Below, in pieces: positions 42,172 through 58,548 of a stretch of 64,000 nt of DNA. Under the pieces are notes generated by a model. That model made no database searches. It saw nothing but the letters and a program-made list of their open reading frames with translations, and was not told the DNA's origin. The stretch covers positions 5,216,522 to 5,280,521 of the forward strand of contig OX638329.1 of the NCBI GenBank assembly GCA_951812755.1, written 5' to 3'. The stretch is from an uncultured Latescibacterota bacterium (GTDB lineage Bacteria > Latescibacterota > UBA2968). The translations under genes and the position numbers were made by a program. How positions within the stretch are numbered: the stretch's first letter is position 1; the number at the start of each line of letters is the position of its first letter.

Positions 42172-45100
42172 TTACGGCACCACCTTTGGGGCAAGTTCGT
42201 GTTGGAAGTTGGCCCTAGGACTAAGACATAAAAGACGAAGTGTGCCCGCTTGCCGCCCAAGGTCCACCAGCTTTGCGACTGGCCCCTTGCCATCCGGGGC
42301 GAGACACCCCAAATGTCCCAATATGATCACTGCCTCGCGTGCTCTCGAAAGAGCAACATTGAGCCGATGTCGATCAAGGAGAAACTGAGTACTCCCGCTG
42401 CTACGGGTCATTAGCAAAATCACTATATCGGCCTCATCACCTTGAACAGCATCCACAGTTGTTGCTTCTACGGAAAAGCCGTATGATTTATTGCGGATTT
42501 CCTCTTCCACGGCACTGCGTTGCGCTTTGTATGGACAAATGATCATAAGTTCCTCTACTGTACTCTTATTCCGATCTCGCAGGCGATCCAGGATGGTACG
42601 CAAAGCGTCACGCTCGGTGGGATTTTCTTGCGAGGTCCCGCTCTTGCGATTTCGGTAGGACGAAAACCGAGTGAAATCAACGAACACGATACGCCGATTG
42701 GTGAGTGTCCATTCGCCACCTTTCCGGTGCGACTGGAGCTTACCTTTATAGAATAAGTTGCTGACGAGGGAGCCGATGTGCTCGTGCATACGGTACTGCA
42801 TCGTGAGCATCCCTTTGTTCTGATCGGGCAGTTGTTCAAATATCTCGTGAAACATGTTTCGCCGTAGCAGTTCTTCGACTTCGGACATTGAGAGCCGGTA
42901 TCCAATTCCTTCGTCGAGCATGTCTGTAGTCACAGTTGGAGGCAACTGGTGATGGTCACCAACCATAATGACGCGGCGAGCCACGGCCGCGGGAATAAAC
43001 AACTCTGATCCGAAAGCCTTTCCCGCTTCATCGACGATTGCGATGTCGAATGTTCGGTTGCTCAACGCGAGATCCCGACGCGCCATGCCAACACATGTAG
43101 CCGCGTGGATGTGCCTCGGCCCCAGTAGCCACTTTGCGGCTGCCTCGCGCCCCTCCCTATTCCGGAGTACCTCCGCCCACCTTTCCACACCTGCATTATC
43201 CGATCCGTCTCTGATGTTCTCAGGATCAACGCCTTGGAGGAGATATTTATGCCAGACATCTTTCAGACTGGTCCCTTGAACACGATCTTTATGGCCGTAC
43301 CTCACGGAATCTTCTCTTAACCGCTCCCCGTCTTTTTCCAAGAGGCGAGTAAGGAGGTTATCCACCGCTACATGCGTTGGTGCTGTCAGTAGGACACTAT
43401 GCCATTCGCGTTCCCTACCAATAGGGAAAAGTGAGAGGAGCCAATTCACCAAAGTCGTGGTTTTTCCCGTACCTGGCGGTCCCCAGATCGCAACAACCGA
43501 CGCTTCGGAGGCGAGGAGTTTCTCGACCGCTTGTTTTCCAAGGACGCGATTTTCTACTTGGTCGCCAGACAGACCAAACAGCGTGCTGTGTACTCCGGAA
43601 GAAGCAAACTTTCCAAGTATTGCACGCTCCAGGGCCTTCGAGAGGGTCTGTTGTGAGATTCCTTCTCCGACGCGTTCCAACCGCTTGATGTGAAAAGGAT
43701 CAATCTCTTGAAATGACGCTTCGTCTGGAACCCTCAGTTCCAAACGACAAATTCTGAGCCGCTCATTTGTCCATTTAGCGCGGCGAACTTCCCAAGAGGC
43801 CTCCTGTGATATTGCCTGGAGCCGCGGATCCTGGTCGGAAGAAAGACTCTCGTTCAGCCAGTCAGGAATATCGTTATCGGGTATGGTTCCGATAACGACT
43901 CGACCGCCTTTATGCTCATCACCGGGAATAAAGCCACACGAACCCGTGTCGCGCAGATATTCCTCTTGATCCTGATAGATGAGCGACAATTTGCGAAGCC
44001 GAAACGCAGACCGCCGCTGGAGTAGCTGTTGTTTTTGACTGCTCAACTCTCCATGCACAGCCTCTAAAAAGGACTCAAAGAGTGTTCTATCCGCATCAAC
44101 ATCATCCTTTGTACCCGGAACGAACGCACTCAGTCCAGCCTGGAAGCGAACCGATACATCGGGCGTTTTGGATACCATTTTCACATCTTTGAGGACAAAT
44201 GCCTTCTGCTCAAAGTCTGGTTGAGTTTCAAGCGTCACCTGGCCCAATGTGAATCCCAATCCGCCTGAATCAAGTAGGTGGAGTCTCCACGGCGACTCAC
44301 TTAGCGACGAGTCGGAGATGTGCTCGTACGCTTTGACCAAGCTCGGCAATTTGTCCTCGGTGATAGAAAGCAGGATCGGCGACCAGAACTTACGGCTACC
44401 ATCTACACGCGGATGAACGCGCACACGTAATGGCCCCTCCCTGTCAAAGCGCGTGACCTCTTTTAATGTCCATATCTCAGGATAGACCTCAACCTCATTT
44501 TCAGGAAACAGCCACTCGCCTCCTCTTCCTCCTTGGTTCGGTAGGAGAAATGGCACACCCTGGTATTCGAGATGCACGCCATCACCATCTCGATGCAGAA
44601 CCTTGGCCTGCATTGGACCGCCCCCATCTGTGAGGTTCGCCTCTAATAGGGCGCATCGAGACGTAGATATACGAGCGATGCGTTTGTCATGGTTGACATC
44701 GTAGAAAACTGCTCGTCCATCAAGCTCTTTTGACCAGTCCGTGCCTTGGAGCCTATAGCCGTGGAGGTAGGATGGGGCTGAATTAAAGTGTACGAACCCA
44801 CCATCGCGCGGAAAATCATTCGGGAGATCCAATGAGGCCGGGCTTGGAACCTCCATGTGCCTCTCCAAAACATCTTTGAAGGTAGCCCTCAAGGTCGAGA
44901 GGTACGCACACTCGGCTTTCACACGACTAAGGGCCATTTCCAACTCGAGTACCAACCGTTGGAAAGTCCCGCTCTCTTGACTTCCGAATCGATTCCGGAT
45001 GATTGAGCGAGCCTTGTCCAAGCACATGGTCAGTTCTGAATCAATGTCTTTGCGTGTACTAAGTTCCTGCTCAATCAACGCGTCAAGCCGATGGAGGTAC

Positions 45101-45264
45101 TTCTCAATCATTGAGCGTCGAGCCGCAGCATCCTCAGCATGAATTCGTTCGCGCTCAGTTTCGAGTTCGTTGATCTCCTGTTGTACCTTAGCCGTTCGCT
45201 TTCCGTTCCACCAGGAGATGGTGGAGGCTGCCAAGCTGATACCAGCAGCGAGGAGCAGTAACAT
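42172..45264 (-). CDS. Membrane-anchored UPF1/DNA2-like SF1 helicase
   Basis: 1030 residues. It starts with a TM helix (MLLLLAAGISLAASTISWW) and a charged coiled coil to about residue 125, then a 450-residue region not recognised. The SF1 helicase core follows: Walker A WGPPGTGKTTTLVNW (about 595), Walker B IVDEAGKAFGSEL, motif III GDHHQLPPTV, QYRMHEHIG (motif IV), TVDAVQGDEADIV (motif V) and NVALSRARE (motif VI). This set is that of UPF1/DNA2/NAM7 helicases. The gene starts four bases after the coiled-coil gene. It probably works on phage or plasmid nucleic acid near the membrane; that role is inferred from the company it keeps. Confidence 0.85.
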   Translation of the reverse strand: MLLLLAAGISLAASTISWWNGKRTAKVQQEINELETERERIHAEDAAARRSMIEKYLHRLDALIEQELSTRKDIDSELTMCLDKARSIIRNRFGSQESGTFQRLVLELEMALSRVKAECAYLSTLRATFKDVLERHMEVPSPASLDLPNDFPRDGGFVHFNSAPSYLHGYRLQGTDWSKELDGRAVFYDVNHDKRIARISTSRCALLEANLTDGGGPMQAKVLHRDGDGVHLEYQGVPFLLPNQGGRGGEWLFPENEVEVYPEIWTLKEVTRFDREGPLRVRVHPRVDGSRKFWSPILLSITEDKLPSLVKAYEHISDSSLSESPWRLHLLDSGGLGFTLGQVTLETQPDFEQKAFVLKDVKMVSKTPDVSVRFQAGLSAFVPGTKDDVDADRTLFESFLEAVHGELSSQKQQLLQRRSAFRLRKLSLIYQDQEEYLRDTGSCGFIPGDEHKGGRVVIGTIPDNDIPDWLNESLSSDQDPRLQAISQEASWEVRRAKWTNERLRICRLELRVPDEASFQEIDPFHIKRLERVGEGISQQTLSKALERAILGKFASSGVHSTLFGLSGDQVENRVLGKQAVEKLLASEASVVAIWGPPGTGKTTTLVNWLLSLFPIGREREWHSVLLTAPTHVAVDNLLTRLLEKDGERLREDSVRYGHKDRVQGTSLKDVWHKYLLQGVDPENIRDGSDNAGVERWAEVLRNREGREAAAKWLLGPRHIHAATCVGMARRDLALSNRTFDIAIVDEAGKAFGSELFIPAAVARRVIMVGDHHQLPPTVTTDMLDEGIGYRLSMSEVEELLRRNMFHEIFEQLPDQNKGMLTMQYRMHEHIGSLVSNLFYKGKLQSHRKGGEWTLTNRRIVFVDFTRFSSYRNRKSGTSQENPTERDALRTILDRLRDRNKSTVEELMIICPYKAQRSAVEEEIRNKSYGFSVEATTVDAVQGDEADIVILLMTRSSGSTQFLLDRHRLNVALSRAREAVIILGHLGCLAPDGKGPVAKLVDLGRQAGTLRLLCLSPRANFQHELAPKVVP

Positions 45265-46262: not shown

Positions 46263-48296
46263 TTACACCTCCACCTTGCACCAGCAATCGGGCGTTGCAT
46301 TTGTAATCTTACCACCCCGCGGCAAAATGACTCCTTTGATGTTAGGAGTCGGAGGAACTTCACCAGTACGTTCACGAACCCGGGGATGATCATCTGATCG
46401 AGGGATCCAATAGGTTTTTGTCCAAGGCTCAAAGTATAGGGGCTTTGTTTCTTTTTTATCTGCTACTTCAACTATGAATCGAATCATGAGGAAATCTCGA
46501 CATCGCTCCTTGAGTTTGTTAGAATCGGGGCGGTAGGGTTTGGCTTCTACAGCGTCGAACTTGCTCCATAGCCCTGCAAGCACCCAATGCTCAGGCACAG
46601 GGACATACTCTATCTTCGGGGGGCCATCACGGCGAAGGTAGACACGAAGTCGCGTGTCCTCCCGGAGGGATGCCCAAGCATCCCGTTGATCATTGCTGGC
46701 GATGTGCTCAATCAGTATTTCGAGGTGTGCCTCATCAGTTAAGAAGTCGGTCTCAGCGGGTCGGTTGAACGGTGGTCTCGCCCAACTGTTTGGGTATTCA
46801 CGCTGAGAATGGTTAGACTTATGCCTCCGACGATATTGTTCCGGCGGGGGCGCTGCACTGGCAAACAGACCTCGAATGGGATCGGCATTCAAATCTCGAG
46901 CACGAGAAATCGCCTCTGTCAACTCAATCCCCTGTGTGCTTGGCATCCTTGATTGAGCAAGGCCCTCGTCCTCAAGCAGATCGAGAATCTCGTCCAGTGT
47001 TCGCGCTGGCAGCCCGGTCGATTTTCGTATCTCATCTTCGTTACACCCGCGTACGAGTTCTTCAAGCACATGAAGTACAACTGGGTCGCAGTTCCGCGGC
47101 TTTTTGGGAACTGCCCAGACCTTGAATGCCAGGCAACTAAAGGGCATTTCGACAATAGGCGACACTTGCTTGAGACCCAGCGAAATTTTTTGCCCTTCCT
47201 GGTCAACGCGCAGGACCATAACCTCAACTTCATCGCTAATGGAGACCAGCTTGGAAGGATGACGGATATGCTGCGTCCAAGACATTTCAGAAATGTGTAC
47301 CAACCCTTCGACACCCTGCTCCAACTCGACAAAAGCCCCGTAATCCGTAATGCTGACAACCTTGCCTATCACCTTGCTATCAACCGGATATTTTTCCTCG
47401 ACATCTTTCCAGGGATGGTCTTGTAATTGCTTCATGCCCAGCGAAATACGCTCGCGTTTTTCATCGTAATTGAGCACCTTGACTTCTACTTCTTCACCAA
47501 TGGACAAGACTTCTGATGGATGTCCAACGCGCCCCCAGGCAATATCCGTAATATGCAACAACCCGTCTAAGCCGCCCAGATCGATAAATGCGCCAAAATC
47601 AGTGATATTTTTGACCGACCCCTGACGCACTTGCCCCACTTCCAATGTGGCGAAAATCTGTTTGCGCAGCCTGGAGCGTTCTTCTTCGAGAACGACCCGG
47701 CGAGAAATGACAATATTTCGGCGATTCTTGTTGAGCTTGATAATACGAAACGGGTACACATTGCCGAGAAATTGATCAAAATTTTTGACCTGTTTGATGT
47801 CAATTTGGGAGCCGGGCAAAAAAGCATCAACGCCGAAAAGATCGACCACAATGCCACCCTTGATTCGCCTCATCAAACGCCCCTCAACAATCTGATCGCT
47901 ATCATATGCGTCCTTAATGCGATCCCATACCCGCATAAAGTCAGCCTTGGTCTTAGACAGCACCACCTGGCCTTCTTGATTTTCAATGCTCTCCAAAAAA
48001 ACCTCGATTTCATCGCCTTCCTCTATAGCTGGCGGATCGCCAAACTCAGAGAGAGGAATCGCGCCTTCAGACTCGAGACCAATATCTACTACCACGATTC
48101 CGTCGTGGATGGACCTCACAATGCCCATAACAATCTCGCCCTGCTTAATGGTCTCTAACATCTCTTCGTAGAGCTCCATCATTTCATTAAACTCTGCCTC
48201 GCTATATTCGCTTTCATCCAGCGCGGCGAGAGCTTCTTCGGGCAAGAGCAAACGCTCTTCGTCCTGCCCCCCGAACAGATTCTTCAACCAGCCCAT
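46263..48296 (-). CDS. rpsA: Ribosomal protein S1 (four S1 domains) fused in frame to an unknown winged-helix-like protein
   Basis: 677 residues from the ATG at 48296 (GGAGG before it). Residues 1-380 are ribosomal protein S1: an acidic start, then S1 domains at about 51-115, 137-200, 221-290 and 306-376 with the signatures ITDFGAFIDLGGLDGLLHIT and ITDYGAFVELEQGVEGLVHI. S1 of most Gram-negatives has six domains. Here, after EGQKISLGLKQVSP, the next 297 residues are different: a winged-helix-like segment (VVLHVLEELVRGCNEDEIRK, STGLPARTLDEILDLLEDEG), a charged linker and a globular domain with PVPEHWVLAGLWSKFDAV and TWCW-like end. The junction is at about 47157. An internal ATG at 47150-47148 has no ribosome site, so the second part depends on S1 translation. 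Either a real insertion-generated fusion or an assembly join. Confidence 0.75.
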   Translation of the reverse strand: MGWLKNLFGGQDEERLLLPEEALAALDESEYSEAEFNEMMELYEEMLETIKQGEIVMGIVRSIHDGIVVVDIGLESEGAIPLSEFGDPPAIEEGDEIEVFLESIENQEGQVVLSKTKADFMRVWDRIKDAYDSDQIVEGRLMRRIKGGIVVDLFGVDAFLPGSQIDIKQVKNFDQFLGNVYPFRIIKLNKNRRNIVISRRVVLEEERSRLRKQIFATLEVGQVRQGSVKNITDFGAFIDLGGLDGLLHITDIAWGRVGHPSEVLSIGEEVEVKVLNYDEKRERISLGMKQLQDHPWKDVEEKYPVDSKVIGKVVSITDYGAFVELEQGVEGLVHISEMSWTQHIRHPSKLVSISDEVEVMVLRVDQEGQKISLGLKQVSPIVEMPFSCLAFKVWAVPKKPRNCDPVVLHVLEELVRGCNEDEIRKSTGLPARTLDEILDLLEDEGLAQSRMPSTQGIELTEAISRARDLNADPIRGLFASAAPPPEQYRRRHKSNHSQREYPNSWARPPFNRPAETDFLTDEAHLEILIEHIASNDQRDAWASLREDTRLRVYLRRDGPPKIEYVPVPEHWVLAGLWSKFDAVEAKPYRPDSNKLKERCRDFLMIRFIVEVADKKETKPLYFEPWTKTYWIPRSDDHPRVRERTGEVPPTPNIKGVILPRGGKITNATPDCWCKVEV

Positions 48297-48310
48297 ATTG
48301 CCTCCGCTTT

Positions 48311-49030
48311 TTACGCACTCTCCAAAAACACCGTCACCCCCATATCGGCGTACTTCTCGCGCGTATCCGGCGTGCGATTGCGATGACAGACCGCCACGCC
48401 AGTCCCTTCCAAAGACCTGCACAAATACGCAATCGTATCATCCACAGACTTCAACCAGTGTTGCGGATGTGCCTTAATGCTCATAGACAAATCCGTCGGA
48501 CCCATCGACAAACAATCCACACCCGCCTTGGCAAGCAAATGCCCGCGTGTTGCGGCCTCTACCGACTCAATCTGCAACCACAAAACCCCAAAGCTATTCC
48601 ACCAATCGGCGTACTCCTCCGTAGATTTATCTTCCGCGCCTCGCCGATGTCCCCCGCCAAAACTGCGCCCTCCAGCCGGCGGATAATAAAAATAATGCAA
48701 CGCATCATCAACCGTCTCTTCCAACTCGGTCTGCGGAATCTCGATCCCACACGGTCCCAAATCGAGATAATTGCCAATCAAATAGGCGTTGCGCGTGTGT
48801 TTAATCCGAAACTGCACAAACACATCGCGCTCGGCAGCCATATCGCAAAACGCCGCGACGCGCTCTTCGCTCAACGGCGTATGCTGGCTGTCAATAGATA
48901 CGAAATCGTAATCATCTTGATCCATAATCTGATCAAACCGATCCGGCGGTGTATTCGGTGCCATAGACACACCAATAATGCGTTCCCCATTGCGATATTT
49001 TTGCTTTAGTCCAATTGCGTTTTCGAACAT
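48311..49030 (-). CDS. HpcH/HpaI aldolase/citrate lyase family protein
   Basis: 239 residues resembling class II pyruvate aldolases of the HpcH/HpaI family. YDFVSIDSQHTPLSEERV matches the DxQH motif (base His), PCGIEIPQTELEE is the metal-site region, LWLQIESVEAA carries the Glu and GVDCLSMGPTDLSMSI the C-terminal motif. It cleaves hydroxy-oxo acids to pyruvate and an aldehyde. Start taken at the second Met (49030), six bases after AAAGGAG. Confidence 0.85.
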   Translation of the reverse strand: MFENAIGLKQKYRNGERIIGVSMAPNTPPDRFDQIMDQDDYDFVSIDSQHTPLSEERVAAFCDMAAERDVFVQFRIKHTRNAYLIGNYLDLGPCGIEIPQTELEETVDDALHYFYYPPAGGRSFGGGHRRGAEDKSTEEYADWWNSFGVLWLQIESVEAATRGHLLAKAGVDCLSMGPTDLSMSIKAHPQHWLKSVDDTIAYLCRSLEGTGVAVCHRNRTPDTREKYADMGVTVFLESA

Positions 49031-50420: not shown

Positions 50421-50909
50421 TCAATCCCGCTGCAAACATTCGACCAGCAGGTCCAATGCTTCGCGGGCAAACACTTCCATATTCTCTCCCCGGTTCTCGC
50501 TGCCCGTCGCGATAGCAATCGCTCGCTCGGTATCTGGCCCCACAACGCCAATACACGTATGGCCGGGCGGATCGCCATACCGATTTCCCGTCGGACCAGC
50601 AGCACCCGTCTCGCCGATACCCCAGTCTGCCTCCAGACGTTCGCGCGCAGCCCGTGCCAGATGCAGTGCATGCGTCTTTGTCGCAGCCCTCGCCTCGCCC
50701 ATTGCCTCATCTGAAACAGCCATCAATATTTGCTTTGAGTCACCCGTATAACACACCCCACCACCCTTAAAATAAGCCGAAGCCCCCGGCACAGCCAAAA
50801 GTGTTGCCGAAATGATTCCACCCGCCGAAGACTCGGCCACCGCCACCGTCTGTCCTTTTTCTTTTAGCAATGCACCCACATCTACGGCCATTATCTTAAA
50901 ATCCGCCAT
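50421..50909 (-). CDS. CinA C-terminal domain protein (NMN amidohydrolase)
   Basis: 162 residues of the stand-alone CinA-C/PncC type, which deamidates nicotinamide mononucleotide. TVAVAESSAGGIISATLLAV (about 20), FKGGGVCYTGDSK and GETGAAGPTGNRYG are the family motifs with the active-site Ser. Start at ATG 50909, where the family begins. Confidence 0.85.
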   Translation of the reverse strand: MADFKIMAVDVGALLKEKGQTVAVAESSAGGIISATLLAVPGASAYFKGGGVCYTGDSKQILMAVSDEAMGEARAATKTHALHLARAARERLEADWGIGETGAAGPTGNRYGDPPGHTCIGVVGPDTERAIAIATGSENRGENMEVFAREALDLLVECLQRD

Positions 50910-50932
50910 ATTAGACCCCCACATTTCATCTA

Positions 50933-51008
50933 GCGGGCAGGCACGAGGCACTGCCCCTACATTTCATCCGTATCCATCTGCGTTTCATCTGCGTAATCTG
51001 CGGATGCT
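50933..51008. repeat. CCCCTAC palindrome followed by ATCTGCG repeat
   Basis: GGGCAG (50935-50940) pairs with CTGCCC (50951-50956), then CTAC, then CATCTGCGTTTCATCTGCGT and AATCTGCGGATG. The permease stop TAG (50959-50957) and its last 17 codons lie in this repeat. Confidence 0.7.
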
Positions 51009-52759
51009 TTTCTATCTCCCACCGGAGCCTCAACGCGAACCGTTACAATATCCGCATCGTGATATTGCTGGTGGCGCACAGACGACGTGAAATGCTGAAG
51101 CAAACGCAGTGAGATTTCATGCTCAACCGGCATCTCGTCTGTATGTTCTCTAAGATAGGCCATACGGTCCTCAATATTCCCCTCGCCAGTCGAAGCGATA
51201 AACTCGAGTTCTGCACCATTACTTCCATCGCTGCGTACAATTAGAAGCAGGCGTTTCTCCACTTGTTCGCCATCCCCTTGCTGAATGAGGATCAGGAGGG
51301 TTTCTTCCGCAGATAGACAGAGACGATTTGTCATCTCGGCGTTCCAGCCCCTGCGCGAGGCGAACTTCTCGAGGAATGCCGTAATCTCTGGCAAAGCTTC
51401 AACAGTGAGCACTGTCTCAATACGCTGGCGACGCGGTGCTGTCAACTCCATAAACAGTGTCAAGAGAATCGCCGTGAGACCGCCAGCCGTCATCCCATTG
51501 CCGAGCAGCGCCCCCCACCACTCGCCGAGGTATTCCGCAAAAATCGCCTGAGCCTGGAATCCCACACCAATCCAGAATGCGATGCCCGCAATCATCGCCT
51601 TGCGATAATCTACCCCATCCTGGACGACAACCCGCATACCCACAACAAAGAGAAGTGCCAGCAGCACCGTCACATAGGCCCCGACCACGGGATTGGGAAT
51701 CGCCAGCAGGAGTGCCGACACTTTGGGAATACAGGACGCCACTACAAATACGATACCAATACACACGCCGACGCCGCGTGCGGCAACACCGGTGAGCTCT
51801 GTGATTGAAACACTTGACGAGTAGGTCGTATTTGGAACTGTCCCCGCAATGCCAGAAAGCAAGTTGCCCACGCCGTCTGCGGTAACTGCGCCTTGCACCG
51901 CGCGAAAATCAGGCGCGCGGGGCGTGCGCCACGAAACCTTCTGGATAGCGATAGAATCGCCTATTGTTTCGATAGCACCGACCATAGTCACAAATATGAA
52001 GGCAGGAAGAAGCGACCAGAAAACAGGACCAAAGCTTAGGTCAAAACCCGGCCAGCCACCAGAGGGAAACCCTATCCATGGCGCTTCGATAACGCGCTGA
52101 ATGTCGTACAGCCCAAAAAACGCGGCAACAATACACCCCACAACAATCCCTATAATCGGCACCCAAAGACGCCACACACCCGAAACGCGCAGTGCGAGCA
52201 CCACGATGACGAACAAAGTTGCAAAAGCACACGTGGGCGCGGCAGCCGGTGGCGTTCCCTCGGGCACATCCGCCAACGTATCAAAGATGATCGGCATAAT
52301 GGTTACCGCAATCAACATGATCACCGTTCCAGCCACAGTTGGCGTAATGATTCGCCGCAGCAGCGAGAGCCGTGTCGAGAGCGCGAATTGGAACAACGAC
52401 GAGATAATGACCAGAGTAGCGAGCATCGCTGGCCCGCCCTCGGCAAGCGCCGTCACGCAAACCGCGATAAAAGCACCAGAAGTGCCCATAAGGAGAATGT
52501 AGCCAGCGCCAATGCGTCCAACGCGCACAGCTTGCAACACCGAGGTCAATCCGCTGACCATAAGCGCGGCAAAGACCGCCCACGACAGAAAAGGCTCGCC
52601 CCCGCCCGCGGCCCGCACCACGATAACCGGCGTAATCACAATGCCCGCAATACAGAGCATCGCAGCCTGAAATCCGAGCGCAAAAGTGATCGTATGCGGA
52701 GGCCGCTCGTCGGGTTCGTAAAGCACTTGTTGGTCGCGGCTACCAGACTCAGATTGCAT
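50957..52759 (-). CDS. NCS2 xanthine/uracil permease fused to a HATPase (RsbW-like) domain
   Basis: 600 residues. Residues 30-440 are a NCS2 nucleobase transporter with about 13-14 TM helices, including VGAIETIGDSIAIQKVSW and VGNLLSGIAGTVPNTTYSSS (the family QN-type loop) near 270-315. Residues 443-575 are soluble: ALPEITAFLEKFASRRGW, RLCLSAEETLLILIQQGDG with the N-box-like Glu, and FIASTGEGNIEDRMAYL, resembling anti-sigma RsbW/HATPase_c domains. The final residues (KASADYADETQMDTDEM) are translated from a dispersed repeat. A transporter carrying a GHKL-type regulatory domain is unusual. AAAGGA precedes the ATG. Confidence 0.82.
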   Translation of the reverse strand: MQSESGSRDQQVLYEPDERPPHTITFALGFQAAMLCIAGIVITPVIVVRAAGGGEPFLSWAVFAALMVSGLTSVLQAVRVGRIGAGYILLMGTSGAFIAVCVTALAEGGPAMLATLVIISSLFQFALSTRLSLLRRIITPTVAGTVIMLIAVTIMPIIFDTLADVPEGTPPAAAPTCAFATLFVIVVLALRVSGVWRLWVPIIGIVVGCIVAAFFGLYDIQRVIEAPWIGFPSGGWPGFDLSFGPVFWSLLPAFIFVTMVGAIETIGDSIAIQKVSWRTPRAPDFRAVQGAVTADGVGNLLSGIAGTVPNTTYSSSVSITELTGVAARGVGVCIGIVFVVASCIPKVSALLLAIPNPVVGAYVTVLLALLFVVGMRVVVQDGVDYRKAMIAGIAFWIGVGFQAQAIFAEYLGEWWGALLGNGMTAGGLTAILLTLFMELTAPRRQRIETVLTVEALPEITAFLEKFASRRGWNAEMTNRLCLSAEETLLILIQQGDGEQVEKRLLLIVRSDGSNGAELEFIASTGEGNIEDRMAYLREHTDEMPVEHEISLRLLQHFTSSVRHQQYHDADIVTVRVEAPVGDRKASADYADETQMDTDEM

Positions 52760-52886: not shown

Positions 52887-53894
52887 TTATGCCAACAACT
52901 CATCGCCATAAGCAAATAGCGCAGGCGTTCCACCCGTATGCACAAACACAACCGTCTGATCCCTGCGATACCATCCCTCGCGGATATGCTCAATCATTGC
53001 GCCATAAGTTTTGCCCGCATAAACGGGATCGAGCAACAACCCTTCGGTTTGCGCGGCCAACAAGACAGCCTCTCGCGCCTCAGGCGTCAGGACCCCATAA
53101 GCCGGCCCCGCGTATTTGCCATAACTCTCAAAATCATCTGCCGTAAAATACAGATCCAAATTCAGAATTTTGCACACCTCATTTGCAACCTCGGCGAGTT
53201 GCACATTCTTTTTCTCATCGTCCTGTGGACTCGGACTTATGCCAATAACCCGCACATCAACACCCAGTGCTTTTGCCCCAACAACAAGCCCGGTATGCGT
53301 ATGCACGCCCGCACACACATAGATCGCATCGGGCATCACATCCATCGCCTGCATCTGTTCCCACAATTCCAAAAACCCATCCACATAAGATACACTGCGA
53401 TAATAATACCCATCCGAACTCGTGTTATAGACCCTGAGTCCATCGGCCTTTAACTTTTCAATAACGACTTCCTTCTCCTGCTCGTTCTCGATCAAATGCA
53501 CCTCTGCGCCAAACAGATGCGTGAGCAACAAATTGCCATTCACGGGATCTGCATGGTCATCCTTGCGCCCCACCATCACCGCCTTCAGCCCCAACCTCGC
53601 TGCAACCGCCGCAGTCAACCGCGATTGATTCGACTGCGATGCCGCGCCGTGAAGCAACACATCATACCCTTCATCCACAGCAGGAGCTACGGAATATTCA
53701 AACTCGCGCACCTTATTCCCCCCAAACGCCAACCCCGTCTGATCCTCGCGCTTGACCAAAATGCGCGGACCCCCCAACTTTTCTGCCAGCCTCGGACAAT
53801 CCATCAACGGCGTGGGCAAATCGGCAAGCGACAATCGGCTGCACGTTCCCAACGCCTCTCGAACCTCTCGAATTGAATAGCTCAAGGGTATCAC
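52887..53894 (-). CDS. D-cysteine desulfhydrase/ACC deaminase-like PLP enzyme
   Basis: A 335-residue fold-type II PLP enzyme. ILVKREDQTGLAFGGNKVRE carries the PLP Lys (about 61), LLHGAASQSNQSRLTAAVAA binds phosphate and VHTGGTPALFAY closes the site. This is the D-cysteine desulfhydrase/ACC deaminase family; the substrate is not sure. The next gene is five bases upstream in the same direction. Confidence 0.85.
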   Translation of the reverse strand: MIPLSYSIREVREALGTCSRLSLADLPTPLMDCPRLAEKLGGPRILVKREDQTGLAFGGNKVREFEYSVAPAVDEGYDVLLHGAASQSNQSRLTAAVAARLGLKAVMVGRKDDHADPVNGNLLLTHLFGAEVHLIENEQEKEVVIEKLKADGLRVYNTSSDGYYYRSVSYVDGFLELWEQMQAMDVMPDAIYVCAGVHTHTGLVVGAKALGVDVRVIGISPSPQDDEKKNVQLAEVANEVCKILNLDLYFTADDFESYGKYAGPAYGVLTPEAREAVLLAAQTEGLLLDPVYAGKTYGAMIEHIREGWYRRDQTVVFVHTGGTPALFAYGDELLA

Positions 53895-56350: not shown

Positions 56351-56436
56351 GAGCGGCATCCTTGCCGCGATCAAGTTCGGGGAGCGGGGTACAACTGCGC
56401 CAGCAGTTCAAAGGATTTCCCTCCTACGCTACCACA
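56351..56436. repeat. Dispersed repeat with a second palindrome nested in it
   Basis: GAGCGGCATCCTTGCCGCGA at 56351-56370 and AAGGATTTCCCTCCTACGCT to 56430 match 52827-52879. Between them 56382-56412 holds the inverted form of the AACTGGC palindrome, absent from the other copy. Confidence 0.7.
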
Positions 56437-56466
56437 AGACTTAAACAGTTACACAGGAAAAGATAC

Positions 56467-58548
56467 GTGACCCAAAAAACAGCAAAACTCAAACGAGAAA
56501 TCGGCTTGCTCGGCGTTTATGCCATTGCGACGGGCACAACCTTGAGCGCGGGATTCTTTTTATTGCCGGGACTCGCTGCCGAACAGGCGGGTGCTGCAAT
56601 TGTACTGGCGTATATCGTCGCCGCCGTTCCACTCGTACCGGCAATGTTCAGCATTATTGAAATGGCAACAGCAATGCCCCGTGCGGGTGGCGTGTATTAT
56701 TTTTTAGACCGGTCACTCGGACCGTGGATGGGCACGCTTGGAGGCATTGGCACATGGCTGGCACTCGTATTAAAAGTATCATTCGCACTCGTGGGCATGG
56801 GGGCGTATATCGCGCTTTATGTGCCCGAGTTGCCAATAACCCCCGTGGCGGTCGCAATTGCGGTTGGCCTGGGCATACTGAATCTATTGGGCGCGCAGAA
56901 AAGCGGTGGATTTCAGATGGCATTGGTGCTGGGTTTGTTGATGATCCTGGGAATATTTATCGGAGGAGGTGTACCCAATATTGAACGCGCGCGGTTGACT
57001 GCGATATTCGAAGTAGATACCCAGACGATTTTATCCACAGCGGGCCTGGTCTATATCAGTTATGTCGGCGTGACAACCGTAGCGAGTTTATCAGAAGAAG
57101 TAAAACATCCCGAGCGCAATTTGCCTTTGGGCGTCATCTTTTCATTGATTACAGCGGTTCTGGTCTATGCTTTGGGCACGGGCGTCATGGTCGGTGTATT
57201 GCCACTCGATCAACTGGTAGGTGATTTAACGCCCGCCGCCTCAGCAGCCAAAGCCGTATTGGGCGATTGGGGTGCTATAATCATCTCTGTCGCTGCCCTC
57301 CTCGCCTTTACATCGGTCGCCAATGCCGGAATGCTTTCGGCATCTCGCTTTCCCCTGGCAATGAGCCGAGACCACATGATGCCGAGACTTTTTCAGCATT
57401 TGAATGCAAGAGGCGCACCCGTTCAAGGGGTATTGGCGACCATGGGCGTAATTGTTTTGATCCTCATCTTTCTCGACCCAACCAAAATTGCCAAATTGGC
57501 CAGTGCGTTTCAATTATTGATGTTCGCGCTGGTGTGTCTCGCCGTAATTGTCATGCGCGAAAGCGGATTGGCTTCCTACGACTCGGGATATCATTCACCG
57601 CTGTACCCCTATATGCAGTTATTCGGCATGGTATCTTCGTGTACGTTAATTGTCCAGATGGGCTGGTTATCATCTCTATTTTCTCTCGCGCTGATCCTGC
57701 TGGGAACAATTTGGTACTTCAAATTTGCCCGCGACAAAGTCAACCGCGACGGTGCGATTTACCACATGTTTGAACGCTGGGGGCAAAAGCGGTACACTGG
57801 TCTGGATGCTGAACTGCGGGGCATCCTGAAGGAAAAGGGACTGCGCGATGAAGACCCCTTCGAAGAGGTCGCGGCGCGAAGTCTGGTCATCGATCTGGAT
57901 CGCCCGGCCGAATTTGAGGATATAGTTCGAAAGGTATCGAAATGGTTATCGAATCATGTACCACATACCGTAGATGAAATCGAGAAGCAATTGCTGGACC
58001 GCACACATATTGGATCGACACCCGTGACACACGGCGTGGGATTGCCACATCTGCGGATTGATGGAATTGAACACTGCGAAATGGTCCTCGTGCGATCACT
58101 GCCGGGCATTCACATCCAGTTTACAGATCCACTGACCGGACACGAGGTAGAAACGCAACTAACCGCGATCTTTTTCTTATTCAGCCCGGAACACGACCCC
58201 TCACAACACCTGCGTATTCTCGCACAAATTGCGCGGCGGGCAGACGATGAAAACTTCTTGCGAGAATGGCACGCCGCCAGCGATGAAGTCGAATTAAAAG
58301 AAGCCCTGTTGCGCGACGAAGCCTTTTTATTATTGACATTGCGCCACGACCACGCAACTGCTGCCCTCATTGGTCGCGCCCTGATTGAGACAGATTTTCC
58401 AGAAGGCTGTCTCGTGGCGATGTTGCGGCGCGGCGGGCGCATGGTGATTCCCCGCGGCAATACCGTACTGCAAGAAAATGATCGATTGACAATTTTGGGA
58501 AACAGTAAGGGATTGCGCAGCCTCGAAACGCGATTTGGCGAGCGGTAA
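56467..58548 (+). CDS. APC amino-acid permease with EIIA-type and TrkA-C domains
   Basis: 693 residues from the GTG at 56467 (AGGA before it; upstream codons are in a repeat). Residues 10-430 are an APC transporter with about 12 TM helices: GVYAIATGTTLSAGFFLLPG at the first helix and ISYVGVTTVASLSEEVKHPE (about 200) at the core. Residues 470-625 resemble PTS EIIA-2 with His near 525 in HGVGLPHLRIDG. Residues 628-693 match TrkA-C/RCK (LIGRALIETDFPEGCLVAML, TVLQENDRLTILGN). The soluble part would control the permease by phosphate or ligand binding. Confidence 0.85.
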   Translation: MTQKTAKLKREIGLLGVYAIATGTTLSAGFFLLPGLAAEQAGAAIVLAYIVAAVPLVPAMFSIIEMATAMPRAGGVYYFLDRSLGPWMGTLGGIGTWLALVLKVSFALVGMGAYIALYVPELPITPVAVAIAVGLGILNLLGAQKSGGFQMALVLGLLMILGIFIGGGVPNIERARLTAIFEVDTQTILSTAGLVYISYVGVTTVASLSEEVKHPERNLPLGVIFSLITAVLVYALGTGVMVGVLPLDQLVGDLTPAASAAKAVLGDWGAIIISVAALLAFTSVANAGMLSASRFPLAMSRDHMMPRLFQHLNARGAPVQGVLATMGVIVLILIFLDPTKIAKLASAFQLLMFALVCLAVIVMRESGLASYDSGYHSPLYPYMQLFGMVSSCTLIVQMGWLSSLFSLALILLGTIWYFKFARDKVNRDGAIYHMFERWGQKRYTGLDAELRGILKEKGLRDEDPFEEVAARSLVIDLDRPAEFEDIVRKVSKWLSNHVPHTVDEIEKQLLDRTHIGSTPVTHGVGLPHLRIDGIEHCEMVLVRSLPGIHIQFTDPLTGHEVETQLTAIFFLFSPEHDPSQHLRILAQIARRADDENFLREWHAASDEVELKEALLRDEAFLLLTLRHDHATAALIGRALIETDFPEGCLVAMLRRGGRMVIPRGNTVLQENDRLTILGNSKGLRSLETRFGER

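Follow-up and report, generated by a model that had tools for sequence, protein, structure and literature searches.

An open reading frame of an uncultured Latescibacterota bacterium encodes a permease of the SLC23/NCS2 fold that is fused to a C-terminal domain of predicted RsbW-type GHKL fold in which the residues of the ATP site are missing. The gene lies at positions 50957..52759 of the minus strand in the window, i.e. the whole stretch of 64,000 nucleotides that was analyzed, starts with ATG and codes for 600 amino acids. The permease domain (residues ~20–440; 51440..52702, minus strand) comprises 14 transmembrane (TM) helices in a 7+7 arrangement and was assigned by Pfam, Foldseek and motif columns. 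It is followed by the C-terminal domain, in the following C-domain (residues ~446–578, with ~445 as an alternative start; 51026..51424, minus strand), defined by fold, residue census and dN/dS, and by a C-terminal tail (residues 579–600; 50960..51025, minus strand) of variable length and, according to dN/dS, weak constraint. Our preferred reading, to which we assign a probability of roughly 0.6, is a homodimeric elevator-type transporter with a catalytically dead RsbW/SpoIIAB-type GHKL domain as a regulatory or assembly module.

The fusion is real and conserved, and its distribution is patchy. In all full-length homologues the C-domain follows the permease at a constant position after TM14. 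Between close orthologues dN/dS is 0.07–0.12 in the C-domain and similar (~0.1) in the membrane domain, while the tail behind it mostly gives values of 0.5–1.3 over few codons. A chance reading frame or a decaying tail is ruled out by this conservation together with dN/dS, and the substitution pattern is that of a domain maintained under strong purifying selection.

Of the 64 genomes of the phylum, 24 contain full-length homologues of the same architecture, frequently two to five each. Such homologues also occur in metagenome-assembled genomes (MAGs) labelled Gemmatimonadota, Acidobacteriota, Alpha- and Gammaproteobacteria, Dehalococcoidia and Rhodothermales. Fused copies number from one to seven per genome. 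The window's genome contains two (55% identical) together with one ordinary permease of 447 amino acids, AzgA-like by inspection. Other permeases of these genomes were considered as close unfused relatives and rejected; they are short and AzgA-like, and the profile of the fused family barely matches them. In the window's genome and its phylum the C-domain occurs only within these permeases or their fragments. Among 398 sampled Pseudomonadota genomes it was present in two, with the probe genome counted as one of them. Isolate prefixes RHO and IRC, read as sponge genera, suggest that several of the homologue-bearing genomes are sponge-associated.

When a maximum-likelihood tree was inferred from the membrane domain, the core fusions and one distant proteobacterial member fell into a single clade (support 100/100). 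Since phyla are interleaved within this clade, horizontal transfer and duplication are likely to have shaped it. A second set, annotated as 'solute carrier family 23 protein' and located on plasmids of Ca. Thiodictyon, Azospirillum and Pseudoroseomonas, carries a similar though diverged tail; the branch that decides on a common origin of the Thiodictyon-type and the core fusions has a support of 90/53.

Several loci deviate from the single intact gene. At L038:3675-7390 (genome G038) the fused gene is tandemly duplicated, with both copies intact and ~77–79% identical to the query. At L068:2348-4828, and also at L025, the GHKL domain of a fused permease is interrupted and the frame runs on into a Cache-like segment, reaching 883 amino acids; this may reflect a real recombination or an assembly error. 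Most of the apparent matches to the C-domain alone are contig ends or truncated genes, and two are without an upstream permease. One of these, in a Gemmatimonadota MAG (G066, L204:5448-5960), has the C-domain alone behind a single TM helix in 170 amino acids, with the motif residues kept; the other, in a Rhodothermales MAG (G072, L048:4776-5330), has it in a frame of 185 amino acids with no detectable permease upstream. The one-helix form in a single Gemmatimonadota MAG suggests that the C-domain may in addition function independently of a transporter.

The preliminary description had proposed a nucleobase permease followed by an RsbW-type GHKL domain; this order of domains is borne out by fold and weakly by sequence. 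The Pfam model HATPase_c_2 (PF13581) aligned to residues 452–562 with an E-value of 0.019 when the whole protein was searched and of 9.4e-4 with only its C-terminal part, in either case short of the cut-off (20 bits compared with a gathering score of 27.4), and matched 10 of 23 homologous C-domains with a best E-value of 9.7e-6. An alignment with hhalign to a canonical RsbW set from the same phylum was likewise weak (E 0.0017, probability 16%), with the N-box helix aligned. Sequence homology to GHKL proteins is thus a sub-threshold indication. Searches of PDB sequences with the C-domain gave no relative, and matches came only from the fold search. An AlphaFold model of the C-domain was built from a 23-member alignment. 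It has the topology β-α-α-β-β-α-β-β (E-H-H-E-E-H-E-E) at a pLDDT of 80; confidence is low for residues 526–567 of the full-length model and moderate for the domain-only model. Foldseek returned ten PDB matches at E ≤ 0.001, all of them anti-sigma factors. The best was UsfX in the UsfX-RsfB structure 8ih8 (E 2.2e-5), B. subtilis RsbW and a SigF/anti-sigma complex (6m36/6m37, 8jzt) were also within this limit, and SpoIIAB came next with E-values of about 2e-3 to 2e-2. The modeled C-domain is therefore of the RsbW-type GHKL fold of anti-sigma kinases, and not a C-terminal STAS domain as in SLC26/SulP transporters.

In order to judge the ATP site we carried out a residue census over 76 core homologues, with some columns aligned in 73–75 of them. 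The N-box Glu (E486) is kept in all 75 members aligned there. The N-box Asn is found in none of 75, the position being occupied by Thr, Ile, Ser, Leu or Val. The G1 strand ends in Ala, Ser or Val and has DxGxG in no core member, and the glycines of the lid (G2) are changed to Glu/Asp and Ser/Pro in nearly all of them. RsbW proteins from the same phylum read ...VMEALNNAIDHG..., ...VQDEGRGFDP... and ...SGRGLLMMRAF..., and EALNNAIDHG, DEGRGF and GRGLLMM are retained by RsbW proteins both of the same and of related genomes; with these controls a site masked by misalignment was ruled out. The G1 and G2 positions are those given by alignment and topology, because the hhalign match spans only the N-box half.

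These residues bear on whether the GHKL domain could still be an active ATPase or kinase, either controlling transport or phosphorylating a partner. The RsbW-type fold and the universally kept E486 would fit such an enzyme, but the missing N-box Asn, the missing DxGxG and the replaced lid glycines practically exclude it by sequence, and the C-domain would be expected neither to hydrolyze ATP nor to phosphorylate any target. The preliminary description had pointed to a 'SAEETLL helix' and a 'late Gly loop'. The helix does correspond to the N-box helix, but it carries Leu/Ile where Asn should be. The loop (GEG, 525–527) is not a family feature; Gly occurs at 525 in 41 of 76 members and at 527 in a minority. 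An ATP-driven switch, as suggested there, has to be given up with the ATP-binding residues missing and Glu and Ser in place of the lid glycines.

In place of the G1 and G2 signatures the family has a motif of its own. The query reads EHEISLRLLQHFTSSVRHQQYH at residues 546–567 (family motif ExxSLRLLRHxASSVRHQQYH), and the pattern is E-x-[ED]-[IVL]-S-[LF]-R-[LI]-[LI]-[RQ]-H-x-A-S-S-V-R-H-[QR]-[QK]-[YF]-H. Among core paralogues the mean majority-residue identity is 0.77 over residues 546–570 compared with 0.56 in the TMS10 site of the permease.

The membrane domain retains a UapA/UraA-like fold. Pfam Xan_ur_permease (PF00860) matches residues 25–402 with an E-value of 9.8e-52, sub-threshold matches were obtained to the nearest NCBIfam models, TIGR03173 (pbuX) and TIGR00801 (ncs2), and Foldseek found UapA (5i6c, E 5e-18) as well as UraA and SVCT1, in agreement with the 7+7 TM fold of canonical NAT (NCS2/SLC23) proteins. 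The substrate motifs are altered. In TMS1 the query has Q31-A32, with Ala where the canonical Gln-His pair has His; Gln is present in 73 of 73 core members and His in none. In TMS8 it retains ExxGD (E264-T-I-G-D268); this Glu is shared by only 31 of 74 core members, including the query's group, and replaced in the others by Lys (17), Arg (11), Gln (11) or Asp (4). The TMS10 motif has been defined as [QEP]-N-x-G-x-x-x-x-T-[GRK] by Kourkoulou et al. (PMC5972032), and residues of the NAT motif are essential for nucleobase transport (PMC5972032). At the position where [QEP]NxGxxxxTG is expected the query has TTYSSSVSITELTG (311–324); no core member has the Asn or the Gly, and only T-G is left. While the permease fold of the preliminary description stands, its 'nucleobase' label is doubtful because the canonical TMS10 substrate motif is absent, and this specificity should not be assumed.

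The same losses, together with the variable charge in TMS8, could indicate that the membrane half has become a receptor and no longer transports. We regard this as very unlikely. Conservation extends to the 7+7 fold and to much of the TM sequence (mean majority-residue identity of 0.64 over residues 20–440 in the core family alignment), dN/dS is ~0.1, and the Tsx-like channel partner of one group and the catabolic neighbors described below point to transport.

Directly downstream of the query, separated by a gap of 5 bp, lies a CinA/PncC nicotinamide-nucleotide amidohydrolase-like gene of 176 amino acids (50421..50951, minus strand), an order that is kept in the genus. The next upstream gene (52887..53894, minus strand) encodes a PLP enzyme of the D-cysteine desulfhydrase/ACC deaminase/D-cysteate sulfo-lyase kind. 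Within the genus the query is also adjoined by a UxuA-like protein, a DegT aminotransferase and an HpaI/GarL-like aldolase. The PLP enzyme, the UxuA-like protein and the aldolase hint at sugar-acid or sulfonate catabolism. Other paralogues adjoin sulfatase, periplasmic binding protein, glyoxalase or enolase-superfamily genes, and since neighbors differ in this way among paralogues they provide a lead to the substrate only. In 10 genomes the members of one orthologue group are immediately preceded, on the same strand, by a Tsx-like gene. Channel_Tsx matched just twice across the 64 genomes of the phylum, both times next to such a permease; the assignment is weak, with a best E-value of 3.5e-5, five of nine members matching and no PDB match. 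In an 11th genome (G050, L217:4199-5635) the gene behind the Tsx-like one is a truncated fused permease of which only the last TM helix and the C-domain are left. Small polar metabolites are the probable substrates, and judging from the motif columns they probably differ among paralogues. A nucleoside- or nucleobase-like compound is probable for the group with the Tsx-like channel gene upstream, and perhaps an anionic one for paralogues in which the TMS8 Glu is changed to Lys or Arg.

Two further observations concern the window. In a nearby transporter fusion (56362-58548, plus strand) an amino acid permease is joined to a PTS EIIA type 2 domain and then to a TrkA-C domain. A 719-aa reading frame (46263-48422, minus strand), read by eye, begins with S1-like repeats and continues with unrelated sequence; together with an SF1 helicase-like gene (42172-45264) it looks like an insertion into, or a fusion with, an S1-type gene.

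According to the preliminary description the C-domain could couple transport to a sigma-factor or phosphatase switch. Models of SpoIIE, STAS and RsbW were run against the surroundings of 59 homologue loci, ~0.6 Mb in all. Neither SpoIIE nor separate RsbW genes were detected there, so that gene context lends this coupling no support. STAS gave 2–3 cases (three matches, one of them inside a 578-aa reading frame) compared with about one expected by chance, as estimated from the window's genome, which is not a clear enrichment. That genome does have a STAS/SpoIIE/RsbW module (C1:1368323-1370678) and several lone STAS genes, all of them hundreds of kb away from the fused gene. An operon with a partner-switching system is ruled out for the window, and elsewhere enrichment is not clear. 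STAS genes lie near the homologue loci L066 and L196. The latter, on Ca. Thiodictyon plasmid pTs417, contains two SLC23 proteins, each with the diverged, degenerate tail, along with what is left of a third, adjoining an NHLP-type RiPP precursor, ABC ATPases and the STAS gene. At L140:10564-12297 (G023) the 578-aa frame with its C-terminal STAS match, possibly a SulP transporter, is located just downstream of a fused SLC23-GHKL gene.

Such partners would matter if the proteins were substrate-diversified SLC23-fold transceptors, a reading that we hold to be possible, at odds well below even. The permease would sense its substrate, the kinase-dead SpoIIAB-like domain would hold, but not phosphorylate, a sigma factor or an anti-anti-sigma protein of the STAS type, and the transport state would be reported by altering the amount of free partner. 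We retain it because the fold of the C-domain is that of the natural STAS partner, RsbW, UsfX and SpoIIAB being its nearest relatives in structure. The module and lone STAS genes of the genome and the STAS genes near L066 and L196 are in line with it, as is a cytoplasmic motif better conserved among paralogues than the substrate site, which would suit diverse inputs and one output. The absence of a general linkage to STAS or SpoIIE speaks against it. If true, it would be the mirror image of SLC26-STAS, and SpoIIAA as well as SpoIIAB would have been recruited onto one and the same transporter fold.

We propose that the pseudo-GHKL domain acts in the assembly and regulation of a dimeric elevator transporter. 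It would pair with the second protomer or contact the gate helices, and present a conserved basic surface (R552, R555/H556 and R562-H563-Q564) to a partner or an anionic ligand, whose binding would set transport activity. RsbW-type GHKL domains dimerize. NCS2 transporters are dimers as well (PMC5972032). Together with the constant position behind TM14, this would also be consistent with a pure folding or assembly domain that stabilizes the dimer or aids biogenesis and does no switching. We consider such a restricted role improbable, as the polar motif (R, H, Q) is conserved beyond the apparent needs of the fold and many other NCS2 proteins, including the 447-aa one of this genome, do without such a domain.

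The architecture of permease and GHKL domain was not found in our searches of the openly available literature. With canonical NCS2/NAT/SLC23 proteins (UapA, UraA, XanQ/PbuX, SVCT1) the query shares fold, length, PF00860 and the ExxGD of TMS8, whereas the fused family lacks the TMS1 His and the TMS10 [QEP]NxG and has an additional C-terminal domain. The database names 'xanthine/uracil permease' and 'solute carrier family 23 protein' probably mis-describe these transporters. The SLC23 proteins of Ca. Thiodictyon syntrophicum, Azospirillum thermophilum and Pseudoroseomonas cervicalis have an alignable C-terminal region, also devoid of ATP motifs, but they form a separate long-branch clade, keep the TMS1 QH and mostly NxG, and have Asp in TMS8. 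The anti-sigma GHKL kinases RsbW, SpoIIAB and UsfX (HATPase_c_2) share the domain fold and the order of helices and strands; in contrast to them, the fused C-domain has lost the ATP-site residues, is tethered to the membrane by a permease and, by the STAS, SpoIIE and RsbW models, is not encoded beside STAS or SpoIIE genes.

The SLC23 and SLC4 families have been stated to lack C-terminal domains (PMC6497670), and the fused clade is therefore an exception. In SLC26, deletion of the STAS domain lowers transport, and STAS affects the gate helices TM13 and TM14 (PMC6497670); by analogy, the C-domain may play a comparable role. SLC26/SulP transporters share with the fused family the class of membrane fold and a cytoplasmic C-terminal domain drawn from the SpoIIAA-SpoIIAB pair. 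Theirs is STAS, the SpoIIAA (antagonist) half, whereas the fused clade of these uncultivated bacteria, in up to seven copies per genome, carries the other, SpoIIAB half in degenerate form with its ATP site erased. With catalysis ruled out, it offers a clean test of the role of cytoplasmic domains in elevator transporters.
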